A stretch of DNA of 64,000 nucleotides, from the NCBI GenBank assembly GCA_001798595.1, contig MGSS01000037.1, forward strand, positions 33,919 through 97,918, given 5' to 3'. A program made the translations under genes and the position numbers. Shown in pieces: positions 5,398-62,382 of this stretch (position 1 is its first letter; each line of letters starts with the position of its first letter). The notes under the pieces were generated by a model. The model saw nothing but the letters and a program-made list of their open reading frames with translations, searched no databases and was not told the origin of the DNA. Source of the stretch: Deltaproteobacteria bacterium RIFCSPLOWO2_12_FULL_60_19 (GTDB lineage: Bacteria; Desulfobacterota; Binatia; UBA9968).

Positions 5398-5512
5398 CAC
5401 CGTGCCGATCGAGGGGGCGAGTCACGACGGGCGAGGGCACCGAACGCGAAGGTTGCCTAAAGGTAGTGCCCTATTGCCCTCGACCGGAGGGGCTCGTCCC
5501 CGAGAACGCGAA
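5398..5512. repeat. Dispersed hairpin repeat, family 1, copy 1
   Basis: ~110 bp nearly identical to 34131-34244 and to the reverse complement of 43643-43741; inner stem CGAGGGCA (5432-5439)/TGCCCTCG (5475-5482). Confidence 0.85.
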
Positions 5513-25700: not shown

Positions 25701-25733
25701 AGCAGAGCGCTCGCTGGCTCGAACGGGTTAGAG

Positions 25734-25885
25734 TCCGAAGGCGCGAACCCTTCCGGTCGACGGCCGATCCTCGCTTCGCTCGAAATCTCAGATCGCAAAT
25801 TTCAGATCTCAGAATTGCAATTTGAGATATGTGATTTGAGATCCCGAAGGGCAAGCCGTCGCCCTTCACGGTTCACGCCTTCGGA
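25734..25885. repeat. Hairpin repeat: family-1-like stem with AGATCTCAAAT module in the loop
   Basis: Outer arms TCCGAAGGCGCGAACC/GGTTCACGCCTTCGGA (15 of 16), inner CGACGGC/GCCGTCG (25758-25764/25855-25861), internal module 25768-25852. Confidence 0.8.
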
Positions 25886-25929
25886 CACGCGTCTGCCGTG
25901 ATCCAGCCAGCGGGAGTAACGAACCCAGG

Positions 25930-26634
25930 CTAACTTCTCTTTCGCGCTTGTCTCGCCCGCCTGACAAAGTAGTCCCACATCGAGCCCAGCCGGTGGGGAG
26001 TGTAGATCTGCTCGAATTTGACCGGCGACTCTTCGTCGCTGGTCCACGACGGATCGCCGGAGGCCGTTGCCAGCAGGTGGATGCGGCAGGCCTTCTCCAA
26101 AAAAACCGCATAGAGCGTCGCCACTTCGATCGACTCTCCGACGACGGTCGAGCCGTGATTTTTCATCAGCACGCCGCGACACTTGGCCAGCGACTTGGCC
26201 ACCCCGACGCCGAGTTCAGGCGTGCGGATGAGCGCGGTCGTGGCGTCGAAGGTCGGCAGCCCTTCGTAGAAAATATTCCCCTCGTGGCTGATCGGCCTTA
26301 GCTTCTGGCCGAGCGCGCCGAAAACCGTCGCGTAGGGCGGATGGGAGTGCACCACACAGTTGACATCGGGACGCGCCTTCATGATTTCGGTGTGGATGAA
26401 GACCTCGGAGTGGCGTTCGTATTTGCCATCGATCTTCTTGCCGGTCGCGATGTCGACGACGATGATGTGCTGCGGTCGGATCTCCTCGAAGCCGAAGCTG
26501 TGCGGCTTCATCAGGATCTTGTTCTGTCCGGGAATGCGCACGGAGACGTGGCCGAGGATGTTGTCCCAGTGGCCCTCGTTGGCGAGGATGTTGCAGGAGT
26601 ATGCCAAATTCTCTTTGAGTTCTTTGAGGCTCAT
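25930..26634 (-). CDS. Class II aldolase/adducin family protein
   Basis: LKENLAYSCNILANEGHWDNILGHVSVR...SHPPYATVFGALG...LMKNHGSTVVG. Confidence 0.9.
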   Translation of the reverse strand: MSLKELKENLAYSCNILANEGHWDNILGHVSVRIPGQNKILMKPHSFGFEEIRPQHIIVVDIATGKKIDGKYERHSEVFIHTEIMKARPDVNCVVHSHPPYATVFGALGQKLRPISHEGNIFYEGLPTFDATTALIRTPELGVGVAKSLAKCRGVLMKNHGSTVVGESIEVATLYAVFLEKACRIHLLATASGDPSWTSDEESPVKFEQIYTPHRLGSMWDYFVRRARQARKRS

Positions 26635-26725
26635 GTTGTCTCCTTCCCGAGTAGTCGATGATGAAAGATTTTTTTCTGTATCATGGTTCGATAAGATTTT
26701 CCAAAGGTGTCCACCCATCGTTACT

Positions 26726-26802
26726 GTAGGGGCGCAATTCATTGCGCGCAGGCTAATCCCATTGGGCGTTTCCGGAGAGGGCGCGATAAATCGCGCCCCT
26801 AC
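26726..26802. repeat. Palindromic GTAGGGGCG...CGCCCCTAC intergenic element
   Basis: Perfect 10-bp terminal arms GTAGGGGCGC/GCGCCCCTAC plus internal GCGCAATTCATTGCGC and GGGCGCGATAAATCGCGCCC hairpins. Confidence 0.85.
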
Positions 26803-26823
26803 GCCAGGTGAAATGGTGCGCGC

Positions 26824-28365
26824 TTATCTGCCGCCGCGTAGCTTAAATCGCTGTATTTTCCCCGTGACGGTCTTGGGCAGCTCGTCGACGAAATCGACCC
26901 ATCTCGGATATTTAAACGGCGCGAGCCTGCTTTTGACCAGCGATTGCAGTTCGTCCTTCAGTTGATCGCTCGCCTTGTACTCGCTCTTGAGCAGGACGTA
27001 GGCCTTGGGCTTCAGCAGGCCGTCGTGATCGGGCTGTCCGACCACCGCCGCTTCCAGGACGGCGGCGTGCTCCATCAACGTATTTTCGATCTCGATCGGC
27101 GAAACCCATAGACCCCCGACCTTGAGCATGTCGTCTGAGCGGCCGCAGTACCAGTAGTAACCCTCTTCGTCGCGATAATAGGTGTCCCCGGTCTTGAGCC
27201 ACTCCCCCAGCATCGTCCGTTTGGTCTGCTCGTGCTTGTTCCAGTAGTAGGGGGCGGTGGCGTCGCCCTTGACGAGCAAGTTTCCGACCTGGCCGGTCGG
27301 CACCTCGCGCCCCTCTTCGTCGACGATCTTCGCCTCAAAAGCCGGCGTGACTTCGCCGCTGCTCCCTGCTTTCGCCCGGCCCGGCCGGTTGGCGAGAAAG
27401 TCGTGCGTCGCTTCGGTCGAGCCTACGACGTCGAGCAGCTCCAGCCCGTACTTCTCCTTCCACTGGTGAAACAGCGCCGGTGGCAGCGGCTCGCCGGAGG
27501 AGAGGCAGATCCTGAGCGAGCTCAGATCGTAATTTCGCTCGACGCGCAGCAGCCGGGCGTAAAGCGTCGGCACGGAAAAGAAAAAGGTCGGGTGGTATTT
27601 ATCGATCACGCGGAGAATCTTTTCCGGGTCGGGACGCTCGGGCCAGAGGACGGTGGCCGCGCCGAAGCGAAACGGAAAATAGAGCGAGTTGCCCAGACCG
27701 TAGGAGAAAAAGAGCTTGGAAGCGGAGAAACAGAGATCGTTTTCGTTCATCCCGAGCACCGGCTTCGCGAAGAGATCGGTGATCGTGATCATGTCGTGCT
27801 GCAAGTGGACCGCCCCTTTGGGCGAGCCGGTGCTGCCGGAGGTGTAGGCCCACCAGGAGACATCGTCCTTGGCCGTCGGCTCCGCCTCGAGCCGAGTCGA
27901 GGCCTTGGAGCTGAACAGGTCGAAGGAGACCGCACGCCCTGTTGGCTTGCCCACCACCAGCACGGCTTTGAGCTGTCGGGGCTGGTTCCAGATCGGCTCG
28001 AATTCAGGCAGGACCGACTCGTGGATGACGGCGACTTTGGCGCGGCTGTCCTGGAGCAGATACTCATAGTCCTTCGACTTCATCCACGGATTGGTCGGTA
28101 TCGGCACGGCGCCGATTTTGATCGCGCCGAAGAAGCTGAAGGCGAATTCGGGAGAGTCGGGCAGGGCCAGCAGAACGCGCTGCTCGATATCGACGCCCAG
28201 CTCTTTCAGCGCGTTGCCGGTCTGATTGACCTTTTCGTAGACGTCCTGGTAGGTGAATTTCTGGTCGTTGTAGTAGATGGCGACCCGTTTGCCGCGACCT
28301 TGGGCGACGTTCTCGTCCACGAAGGTGGTCGCCGCGTTGTAGATGTCGGGAAGGTCGAGCTTCAT
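26824..28365 (-). CDS. AMP-dependent CoA ligase, benzoate-CoA ligase-like
   Basis: WAYTSGSTGSPKGAVHLQHD, VVGSTEATHDFLANRPG, LKTGDTYYRDEEGYYWYCGRSDDMLKVGGLWVSPIEIE, TVTGKIQRFKLR. Confidence 0.92.
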   Translation of the reverse strand: MKLDLPDIYNAATTFVDENVAQGRGKRVAIYYNDQKFTYQDVYEKVNQTGNALKELGVDIEQRVLLALPDSPEFAFSFFGAIKIGAVPIPTNPWMKSKDYEYLLQDSRAKVAVIHESVLPEFEPIWNQPRQLKAVLVVGKPTGRAVSFDLFSSKASTRLEAEPTAKDDVSWWAYTSGSTGSPKGAVHLQHDMITITDLFAKPVLGMNENDLCFSASKLFFSYGLGNSLYFPFRFGAATVLWPERPDPEKILRVIDKYHPTFFFSVPTLYARLLRVERNYDLSSLRICLSSGEPLPPALFHQWKEKYGLELLDVVGSTEATHDFLANRPGRAKAGSSGEVTPAFEAKIVDEEGREVPTGQVGNLLVKGDATAPYYWNKHEQTKRTMLGEWLKTGDTYYRDEEGYYWYCGRSDDMLKVGGLWVSPIEIENTLMEHAAVLEAAVVGQPDHDGLLKPKAYVLLKSEYKASDQLKDELQSLVKSRLAPFKYPRWVDFVDELPKTVTGKIQRFKLRGGR

Positions 28366-28366
28366 C

Positions 28367-28455
28367 CGTCCTCGCTATGCTCGGAATCTCAGATCTCATA
28401 TGGCAAATCTCAAATCTGGAATTTGAGATCTGAGATTTGAGATGCCCGCAGGGCC
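28367..28455. repeat. AGATCTCAAAT module, copy B
   Basis: TCCTCGCTATGCTCGGAATCTCAGATCTC...ATTTGAGATCTGAGATTTGAGATGCCCGCAGGGC, matches modules at 25768-25852 and 30055-30148. Confidence 0.85.
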
Positions 28456-29927
28456 TATTCTCCCCCCACCGCCTCCGACTGCGTCTCGGTGGCGATGACG
28501 ACCGACTTTGATTCCGTGTAGTGCTCGATCGCCTCTTCGCCGTGCTCCTTGCCGATGCCGCTCTGCTTTACTCCGCCGAACGGCAACTCGTCGTAGATGA
28601 TCTGCGCCGAGTTGATCCAGGTGTAACCGGCCTCGATCTCTTCCGCGGCGAGCATCGCTTTGTTGATGTTGCGCGTCCAGACCGAGGAGCCAAGACCGAA
28701 GATCGAGCTATTTGCCTGCCGGATGCCGTCTTCCAAATCTTTAACCCGAACGATCGGCAGCGCCGGGCCGAAAACTTCCTCTTTGATCATCCGGGACTCC
28801 GGATCGACGTCGGCGACGAGTGTCGGCAACAGGTAGAAGCCTTTGTCGTAGGCGCCGCCTTTGGGCCGCTCCGCGCCGAGGAGCAGCTTCCCGCCGCGCT
28901 TGACCGCGTCTTCTACCTGCTCTTCGACCTCTTTGCGTTGTTCGGCGGTGTGGAGCGGCCCCATGATCGTCTCACGGTCCAGGCCGTTGCCGATTCTCAG
29001 CTTTTTGACTTTCTCGACCAACTTCTCGATGAATACGTCGGCGATCTTGTCGGCCAGATAGAGTCGCTTAACGGCCAGGCAGGCCTGTCCGCAGTTGAAG
29101 AAGCGGCCGACGGAGGCGGCGCTCACCGCCCGGTCGATTTCCGCGTCCTCACAGACGATCATCGGATCGCTGCCGCCGAGCTCCAGCGTTACGTGCTTGA
29201 AATCTTTCGCGGCCGACTGCATCACCCGTCTGCCGGTGTCGGTCGCGCCGGTGAAGCCGATCTTTCGCACCGTCGTATTGACGAGCAGCTCTTCGCCGAC
29301 GACACTGCCCGGACCGGTGACGAGGTTAAGGACTCCTTTGGGGCCGCCGGCCGCCTGGATCGCCTTGTCGATCAGGTCGCAGCAGCGGATGTCGGTGAGC
29401 GGAGTCGTTCCCGCGGGCTTCACCACGACCGTATTGCCGGCCAAGAGCGCAGGGCCGAGCTTGTTGCCCATGAGGGAGACCGGAAAATTCCACGGCACGA
29501 TCGCGCCGCAGACACCCAGCGGCTTGCGCAGGACGAGGCCGTGCCGTCCGTGGTCGAGCACCACCGCGGCGGTGCGGAGGCTCTTCGCCATGCCGCCGTA
29601 ATGGTCGAGCGTGTGGACGAAGCGGCGAATCTCCAGGATCGACTCACGGAACGGTTTTCCCTGCTCCTTCGTCAGCAGAGTCGCCAACTCTTTTTCCTGT
29701 TCGAGAATCAGCCGGCCGGCCGCGAGCAGGGCGGCGCCGCGCTTGGACGGGGCCATCTGGGACCATTTTTTCAGCGCGCCGGCGGCGACGTCGATAGCTT
29801 TGCGGATGTCGTTGACGGTTCCCTTGGGGACGGTGTCGACTACTTCGCCGGTGGCCGGATTACGCACCTCGGTCGTCTGTTTGCTCTCCGAGTCCAGATA
29901 CTCGCCGGCAACAAAAAATTTCGCCAT
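28455..29927 (-). CDS. Aldehyde dehydrogenase family protein
   Basis: GVCGAIVPWNFPVSLMGNKLGPALLAGNTVVVKPA, VTLELGGSDPMIV, FNCGQACLAVKRL. Confidence 0.95.
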   Translation of the reverse strand: MAKFFVAGEYLDSESKQTTEVRNPATGEVVDTVPKGTVNDIRKAIDVAAGALKKWSQMAPSKRGAALLAAGRLILEQEKELATLLTKEQGKPFRESILEIRRFVHTLDHYGGMAKSLRTAAVVLDHGRHGLVLRKPLGVCGAIVPWNFPVSLMGNKLGPALLAGNTVVVKPAGTTPLTDIRCCDLIDKAIQAAGGPKGVLNLVTGPGSVVGEELLVNTTVRKIGFTGATDTGRRVMQSAAKDFKHVTLELGGSDPMIVCEDAEIDRAVSAASVGRFFNCGQACLAVKRLYLADKIADVFIEKLVEKVKKLRIGNGLDRETIMGPLHTAEQRKEVEEQVEDAVKRGGKLLLGAERPKGGAYDKGFYLLPTLVADVDPESRMIKEEVFGPALPIVRVKDLEDGIRQANSSIFGLGSSVWTRNINKAMLAAEEIEAGYTWINSAQIIYDELPFGGVKQSGIGKEHGEEAIEHYTESKSVVIATETQSEAVGGE

Positions 29928-30021
29928 TTCTTTCCTCCAACAGTAAACTGAAATTAGAAAAGAATCATCTTCCCTCTGGAATGTCAAGAATTTGCAGGCC
30001 TTGGAAAAAGGCTCCGCCGCC

Positions 30022-30173
30022 GCCCGCCCGGGAATCTCACTCCGGACCGACAAGTCCTCGCTGCGCTCGGAATCTCTCCGCCAAAGTACTGTGGCGGACA
30101 GATCTCAGATCTGAGATTTGAGATTTGCCATTTGAGATCCCGAAGGGCTCGCGTCGGCCCTCCGAGAGACCCC
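30022..30173. repeat. Hairpin repeat family 3 containing AGATCTCAAAT module, copy C
   Basis: Outer arms 30030-30051 GGGAATCTCACTCCGGACCGAC / 30153-30173 GTCGGCCCTCCGAGAGACCCC; module 30055-30148 with extra TCCGCCA/TGGCGGA hairpin. Confidence 0.75.
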
Positions 30174-30231
30174 CAGACGAGCGCTGGTGGAGGCTTTGCA
30201 ACCGGCGGCTGATTGGCTGTATGCAAGAGCA

Positions 30232-34130: not shown

Positions 34131-34244
34131 GTGTCGATCGAGGGGGCGAGCCATGAAGGGCGAGGGCACCGACCGCGAAGGTTGCCACAAGGTAGAGCCC
34201 TATTGTCCTCGACCGGAGAGGCTCGTCCCCGAGAGCGCGCATAA
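34131..34244. repeat. Dispersed hairpin repeat, family 1, copy 2 (in atpH-atpA gap)
   Basis: GTGTCGATCGAGGGGGCGAGCC...GAGGCTCGTCCCCGAGAGCGCG; near-identical to 5398-5512. Confidence 0.85.
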
Positions 34245-36634: not shown

Positions 36635-36640
36635 GAGGAT

Positions 36641-36739
36641 GAAAGCCGCCACCCGCTCTCCGAGCCTGCGCAATGGGTAGCTACTTATTCCCACCGGCAG
36701 TATCGGATGCCCAGGCTCCTCGAACGGGCGGCGGCTTTC
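36641..36739. repeat. Dispersed hairpin repeat, family 4, copy 1 (in atpG-atpD gap)
   Basis: Arms 36641-36668 and 36712-36739 complementary at 23 of 28 positions; same element in reverse orientation at 62291-62382. Confidence 0.85.
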
Positions 36740-36767
36740 TGTGCGAGGCCGAAGGGCGCGAGGGAGA

Positions 36768-36828
36768 GGGCCGCGGACGTCCGATGAGAATGGTTCGACT
36801 CATGGTAGCTACCTATCGGCCGCGGCCC
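36768..36828. repeat. Second inverted repeat in atpG-atpD gap
   Basis: GGGCCGCGG (36768-36776) / CCGCGGCCC (36820-36828) with an internal ATGAG/CTCAT. Confidence 0.6.
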
Positions 36829-43629: not shown

Positions 43630-43642
43630 CGCGGGCCTGAGC

Positions 43643-43741
43643 GACCTCGGGGGCAAGCCCTTCCGGTCGACGGCAATATGGCTGTACTTTTAGGCAACCT
43701 TCGCGTTCGGTGCCGTCGCCCGTCACGGCTCGCCCCCTCGG
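43643..43741. repeat. Dispersed hairpin repeat, family 1, copy 3 (reverse orientation)
   Basis: Inner stem CGACGGCA (43668-43675)/TGCCGTCG (43711-43718); reverse complement matches 5398-5512. Confidence 0.85.
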
Positions 43742-43764
43742 TCTGCTGCATCGCTATCGGTATT

Positions 43765-43899
43765 GCCCGCTTGGGGTCTCTCGGAGGGCCTACGCGTGGG
43801 ACGAAGAGAGTCAAGCGTATTTCAGAGGTACTCTCGGTTCTGAGGGGCAGCGTGACACCGACATATCGCGTCGGCCCGGAGAGAGATTCCCAGGCGGGC
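43765..43899. repeat. Hairpin repeat family 3, second copy (reverse orientation)
   Basis: Arms GCCCGCTTGGGGTCTCTCGGAGGGCC (43765-43790) / TCGGCCCGGAGAGAGATTCCCAGGCGGGC (ending 43899); same arms as 30022-30173 with a different loop. Confidence 0.75.
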
Positions 43900-62219: not shown

Positions 62220-62290
62220 GTTTCGTTTAGTTTCTGGTAAAGTTGGGAGGGCAGCGGATTATCCCTCGCCCCCTTCGGCTTCGAAGTGAA

Positions 62291-62382
62291 CGCCGCCGGC
62301 CGTTCGAAGAGCCCGCGCATCCGATACCGACGGTGGGAATAAGCAGCGACCCATTGCGCGGGCTCGGAGAGCGGGTGGCGGC
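62291..62382. repeat. Dispersed hairpin repeat, family 4, copy 2 (reverse orientation)
   Basis: Reverse complement GCCGCCACCCGCTCTCCGAGCCCGCGCAATGGGTCGCTGCTTATTCCCACCGTCGGTATCGGATGCGCGGGCTCTTCGAACGGCCGGCGGC aligns with 36644-36736. Confidence 0.85.

Follow-up and report, generated by a model that had tools for sequence, protein, structure and literature searches.

The window analysed here is a 64-kb stretch of DNA (contig C37, positions 33919–97918) from a 4.19-Mb, 162-contig metagenome-assembled genome (MAG) of Candidatus Binatia, labelled G000. It contains three copies of a non-coding module of about 85 nt, here called M, which were located and scored with a covariance model (CM) derived from 36 copies. 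All three lie on the minus strand, at 25768–25852, 28369–28454 and 30055–30148, in agreement with the three occurrences described in an earlier note on this DNA. The surroundings of each copy also proved to be as that note had described them. Copy 1 (88.8 bits) sits in an F1-type stem, the inverted repeat I10, whose 32-nt arms at 25733–25764 and 25855–25886 are 81% complementary. Copy 2 (79.4 bits) has no outer stem. It occupies the whole spacer between the TAG stop codon of an aldehyde dehydrogenase (ALDH) gene directly upstream (28455–29930, minus strand; Pfam PF00171, 1.2e-158) and the GAGGA-CGG-ATG start of an AMP-binding gene of the acyl-CoA ligase type directly downstream (26824–28365, minus strand; Pfam PF00501, 1.2e-79). 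For the ALDH protein, the closest named relatives come from MAGs labelled 'Deltaproteobacteria bacterium' and 'Candidatus Binatia', on which the assignment of the organism to the Binatia is based. Copy 3 lies within an F3 stem with arms at about 30022–30051 and about 30153–30182. Its lower score of 37.2 bits is due to a 22-nt hairpin, TCCGCCAAAGTACTGTGGCGGA, inserted within the heptads at 30077–30098, a hairpin that is also present in two further M copies of the genome (L022, L023).

The stem families themselves recur in the window. F1 elements with their own default loop are found at 5407–5504, 34136–34233 and 43641–43743, F2 elements at 36640–36774 (plus strand) and 62262–62382 (minus strand), and an F3 element with default loop at 43765–43899. 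The different loop of the latter had been pointed out before; the statement holds, with the correction that F3 with M is the minority form and the other loop the usual one. Genome-wide, stems with default loops are far commoner than the M versions, with at least 40 copies of F3, at least 23 of F1 and at least 40 of F2.

Read on the minus strand, M begins with a mini-hairpin GCCC-TTC-GGG, continues with about four ATNNCAR heptads and then, in inverted layout, about four ATYTGNR heptads, and ends with a second mini-hairpin, TCCGAGC-NNN-GCGAGGA. In most copies this 3' mini-hairpin has tandem G.A mismatches, in a few Watson-Crick pairs instead. The heptad pattern is not a product of chance: in the 98-kb contig, period 7 stands above every other lag from 4 to 14 (four runs versus 0–1 with the threshold set at ≥22 of 30), and shuffled sequences gave 0.2 runs even at the lower threshold of 21. 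M thus shares with short tandem heptanucleotide repeats a 7-nt periodicity in intergenic DNA in which lag 7 dominates, but it is no simple tandem array without conserved ends, for the end hairpins are conserved and the layout is inverted. Such repeats may arise from replication slippage, with the hairpin context being incidental. The strong periodicity and the several different words at the same spacers (see below) would fit this, and other bacteria are known to have intergenic repeats of heptanucleotides (PMC2700814, PMC4679880). Yet slippage accounts for none of the conserved ends, the fixed four-plus-four inverted layout, the position-specific near-invariance or the placement in the loops of many stem families, and we regard it as highly improbable as the whole explanation.

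The near-invariance is confined to certain positions. Among 89–92 copies from relatives, positions 1, 2, 5 and 6 of the left-arm heptads and 1, 2, 4 and 5 of the right-arm heptads are 98–100% identical, the remaining heptad positions 39–71%. One would expect compensatory changes if the two arms formed a conserved RNA stem. However, the variable positions of opposing arms show no compensation (79.1% of cells paired versus 78.5% after shuffling), and a conserved RNA stem was therefore rejected, while the number of arm pairs changed on both sides does exceed that in shuffles. Near-invariant AT and CA/TG positions, together with others lacking covariation, argue for sequence recognition over a conserved RNA stem. 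Judged by its sequence conservation, the palindrome resembles a set of inverted iterons, CARAT/ATYTG at 7-bp spacing, more than a base-paired RNA helix, and these iterons may be recognised by some protein. A known RNA family was sought in Rfam 15, none of whose covariance models matched at gathering score in the 64-kb window or in the M sites of eight loci. A phage origin was likewise set aside after one exact-pattern scan of viral contigs gave no match to M.

BLAST and CM searches of the genome yielded about 33 credible copies of M among the candidates scored. According to flank inspection, 20 of these lie in the loops of the three GC-rich stem families and 13, about 40%, outside any known stem. 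F3 stems hold 17 copies, two of them with one arm only, the second hairpin of F2 holds two, and a single one sits in an F1-type stem. Both orientations of M relative to the F3 arms occur. Stems were assigned by local complementarity in this genome and by arm-family matching in relatives. At 15 of 37 candidate places scored, the flanks showed a complementarity seen at under 2% of 4000 random positions; flank-to-flank pairs in minimum-energy folds do not discriminate, as random GC-rich DNA scores high too. The M versions of F1, F2 and F3 have no default loop, that is, the loop has been replaced and not interrupted. For instance, at C152 and C100 M stands in place of the loop of the F2 second hairpin. 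This hairpin and the F5 stem of relatives both carry a GACGTCCGA...CCCATCGG loop and so seem, from their sequences, to have a default loop in common. On contig C32 three F3+M copies possess an identical 83-nt M within differing outer F3 arms. These copies (C32:26971, 36955 and 44791; L015, L014 and L013) lie within 18 kb, and their arms differ in pairs: CCCGCC/GGCGGG, CCCGTC/GACGGG and CTCGCC/GGCGAG. Nearly all F3 copies (L050–L079) also have their internal mismatches in common, namely two A.C pairs and an internal loop of 3 nt, and in this they recall the mismatched stems used in strand recognition.

Within the taxonomic family, 22 of 25 genomes contain M. A sister family gave one genome with a weak match, and under stricter filters none of 197 other genomes sampled across the phylum had a copy. 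By this sampling, the modular repeat system with M is confined to one family of Binatia, a group of uncultured bacteria from soil and groundwater. In a sample of 94 copies from relatives, which is biased to the best-scoring ones, arms of five stem families flank 66 copies (F5 27, F2 14, F7 11, F6 9, F3 5), with both arms present in 53; in shuffled flanks, stem arms appeared in 14 of 940 cases (1.5%). The modular loop swapping that the earlier note had suggested is thereby supported: M occupies F1, F2 and F3 loops here and F2, F3, F5, F6 and F7 loops in relatives, and the loop at one orthologous F5 site differs between genomes. Its proposal of a targeted insertion into loops is supported only in part: the default loop is replaced and not interrupted in F1, F2, F3 and F5. 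The flanks, checked genome-wide, are neither random nor do module and stems always occur together as one fixed element.

The module can itself be a host. Three copies of M carry a smaller hairpin, TCCGCCACAGTACTTTGGCGGA, and F4, a palindrome of about 36–40 nt unrelated to M (CCCTTCGA...CTCAGGG...GTGAGC...TCGAACC), is located in the tip loop of the 3' mini-hairpin of M in two genera, at L295 (G000:C74:19046–19166) and at L249, a tRNA spacer of G012. F4 has also been inserted within the heptads of M and, always at the same point, in the tail of F3 (L012, L051, L069, L071). A structure-guided recombinase or transposase could place M and small hairpins at extruded hairpin tips, with remnants of the loop being lost later. 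Such an activity would explain why M sits at the stem/loop boundary in six or more stem families, and why an unrelated F4 lies within the tip loop of M in two genomes of different genera. However, the default loops of F1, F2, F3 and F5 are replaced rather than interrupted, and neither an enzyme nor a target duplication came to light, so that insertion at hairpin tips appears unlikely. We are equally doubtful about a broader combinatorial stem-loop system, in which structure-directed recombination would recognise hairpin tips and install interchangeable loop cassettes, M being the most successful of these and its CARAT/ATYTG iterons the signal.

G006 and G019, two genomes of the same genus, have flanks about 78–94% identical at the compared sites. 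At three sites (C197:37.9k, C71:27.2k and C17:24.5k) an F5+M composite of G006 is missing from G019, with flanks 88–94% identical; C17:24.5k, where the right flank alone aligned, is the weakest of the three. At a further site (C139:12.4k in G006, C773 in G019) both genomes have the same flanks and the same F5 stem in the same place and differ in the loop, AA[M]CGG in G006 versus the 34-nt default GTCCGATTACAAACGGCACGACTCATGGCACGCA in G019. At C76, G019 retains only the 3' arm, consistent, in its sequence, with a deletion between 10-bp direct repeats CCGCRGCCGA. In a spacer common to G000 and G006 (L038/L357), G000 has a free half M co-oriented with the downstream gene and G006 an F5+M on the opposite strand; these were therefore independent acquisitions. 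The filled and empty sites of the three-site comparison show no clean target duplication, and the ends of the composites are not sharply defined. Loop swapping is thus supported by these alignments, with one clear in-situ case. Mobility of the F5+M composite is likely because of the presence/absence between congeners and the identical M in separate copies. Three within-genus filled/empty comparisons support movement of M-bearing composites. The main caution on the G006/G019 comparisons is that in short-read MAGs chimeric joins at repeats can mimic loop swaps.

Which enzyme might move the composites? One model is a REP/REPIN-type element that moves by means of a Y1 (RAYT/TnpA-REP) transposase, since conserved arms with a variable loop resemble REPINs and there is a small hairpin at each end of M. 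Indeed, F1–F3 with their different loops are high-copy inverted arms around a hairpin-forming variable spacer. The search for Y1 genes that had been recommended found three in this genome, and such genes are present in all 25 genomes of the family, but no association with M emerged, nor was an autonomous partner or recombinase identified in this search of Y1 genes. None of 22 Y1 genes examined has M within 1.5 kb; most inspected ones are bounded by their own GGGGTCAGRYCT-type repeats with TGACCCC-type ends. The numbers of Y1 genes and M copies are not significantly correlated (rho 0.35, P 0.086). By inspection, no GTAG- or CGTC-type tag exists at the palindrome foot of M (ends GCCC and GCGAGGA), F3 or F5. 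Mobilisation of M by Y1/RAYT was therefore rejected for lack of association with the 22 genes, and we hold this explanation for very unlikely. Among the Y1 genes of this genome, L031, L032 and L033 (G000:C64 and C144) are bounded by inverted GTGTCAGGCT- or GGGGTCAGRYCT-type repeats, and the unit of L031 also holds a group II intron domain (RF02003).

The 13 free copies occupy intergenic spacers, separating either two tRNAs or a stop codon from the start codon that follows. The tRNAHis-tRNALys spacer is taken up by M in G000, G004, G006, G012, G016, G023, G015 and G008; in G007 this spacer is plain, 26 nt long and without M. The ALDH-ligase spacer is filled by M in G000, G004 and some named relatives and holds degenerate forms in others. 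Still other relatives have at the same spacers heptad hairpins of different words, e.g. GAGGATN, CAGCNAT or CTTTTRC, with period 7 far above shuffles. Such different-word hairpins were seen in the ALDH-ligase spacers L169, L171–L174 and L180 and in the tRNAHis-tRNALys spacers of G001, G018 and G024. Within operons, free copies often touch the stop codon and place GAGGA 1–3 nt before the start (C37b, C97, C155, C16, C13), and from this position the GAGGA can serve as a putative Shine-Dalgarno site. One may ask whether M is a selected cis-regulatory or RNA element, separating cistrons or tRNAs with a sequestered Shine-Dalgarno sequence or binding a protein at the heptad iterons. Several free copies abut both a stop and a start codon. 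Furthermore, the fixed tRNAHis-tRNALys site of seven genomes keeps the AT and CA/TG positions of its heptads at 75–92% identity, compared to 38–50% elsewhere. On the other hand, relatives with different-word hairpins or no insert at the same sites speak against such a role, as does the missing RNA-stem covariation at variable positions, and most M copies reside in repeats, not in leaders. We consider a selected element of this kind quite improbable.

Altogether, M is probably one non-coding cassette of a modular repeat system whose members are dispersed palindromes, and it would spread in two ways. In the first, larger GC-rich hairpin elements (F2, F3, F5 and others) would carry M as their loop and multiply as composites; in the second, M would be swapped with another loop within a stem that is already present. 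The likeliest route would be recombinational repair or template switching between dispersed copies with common arms of about 20–40 nt, triggered by cleavage or fork stalling at an extruded hairpin, which would retain the arms and change the loop between them. We prefer this to direct insertion because the default loop is gone while the arms remain. Hairpin cleavage of the SbcCD type might be a candidate step in the loop swap. Outside stems, M may persist as a spacer of some age that is passed on vertically and separates tRNAs or genes of the same direction; its GCGAGGA end could act there in ribosome binding as a Shine-Dalgarno site, so that insertion would be tolerated. The modularity, the lineage restriction, the presence/absence between species, the one in-situ loop swap and the conservation of four of seven heptad positions come from comparison of the genomes; the repair or gene-conversion route and some enzyme moving the composites are what we infer.

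Several known systems resemble parts of this one. REPINs and BIMEs, the REP doublets of Pseudomonas and E. coli (PMC3116915, PMC2817692, PMC3733652), likewise consist of hairpins scattered between genes, in which the arms are conserved and the middle varies. REPINs have been reported to insert into one another (PMC3116915), and among GTAG/CGTC-tagged REPs one stem with different loops has been described (PMC3733652). In contrast, the M system has no such tag and no flanking RAYT gene, its arms are longer and contain conserved internal mismatches, and one defined 85-nt loop is common to several unrelated stems. The heptanucleotide repeats of Geobacter metallireducens, Beggiatoaceae and cyanobacteria (PMC2700814, PMC4679880), including those of the Nostoc tRNALeu intron, which fold as a hairpin (PMC3488679), also consist of 7-nt units, are intergenic or upstream of starts and are hairpin-capable. 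M differs from them by its conserved non-repeat ends, its inverted four-plus-four layout, four of seven positions being nearly fixed, and its nesting in the loops of other repeats. Insertion sequences target REP palindromes (PMC1525189), and IS1397, IS621, ISPpu9/10 and ISPsy8 are similar to M in that one repeat enters a palindromic one (PMC1525189, PMC8450116). They encode transposases and interrupt their target, whereas M, 85 nt long and non-coding, replaces the loop. In the open literature searched, with most subscription journals outside its scope, we came across no account of M, nor of any loop cassette common to unrelated stems.

The palindromic repeats of bacteria are generally regarded as units that move as a whole by means of a dedicated transposase. 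In the present case, stem and loop behave as parts that are inherited separately, which suggests, as far as sequences can tell, that such repeats can be assembled from exchangeable pieces. For natural genomes this raises the question of whether hairpin-induced breaks may rewrite loops by conversion between dispersed copies. Finally, that the heptad grammar is kept across genera at a tRNA spacer which does not move points to a possible DNA- or RNA-binding partner.
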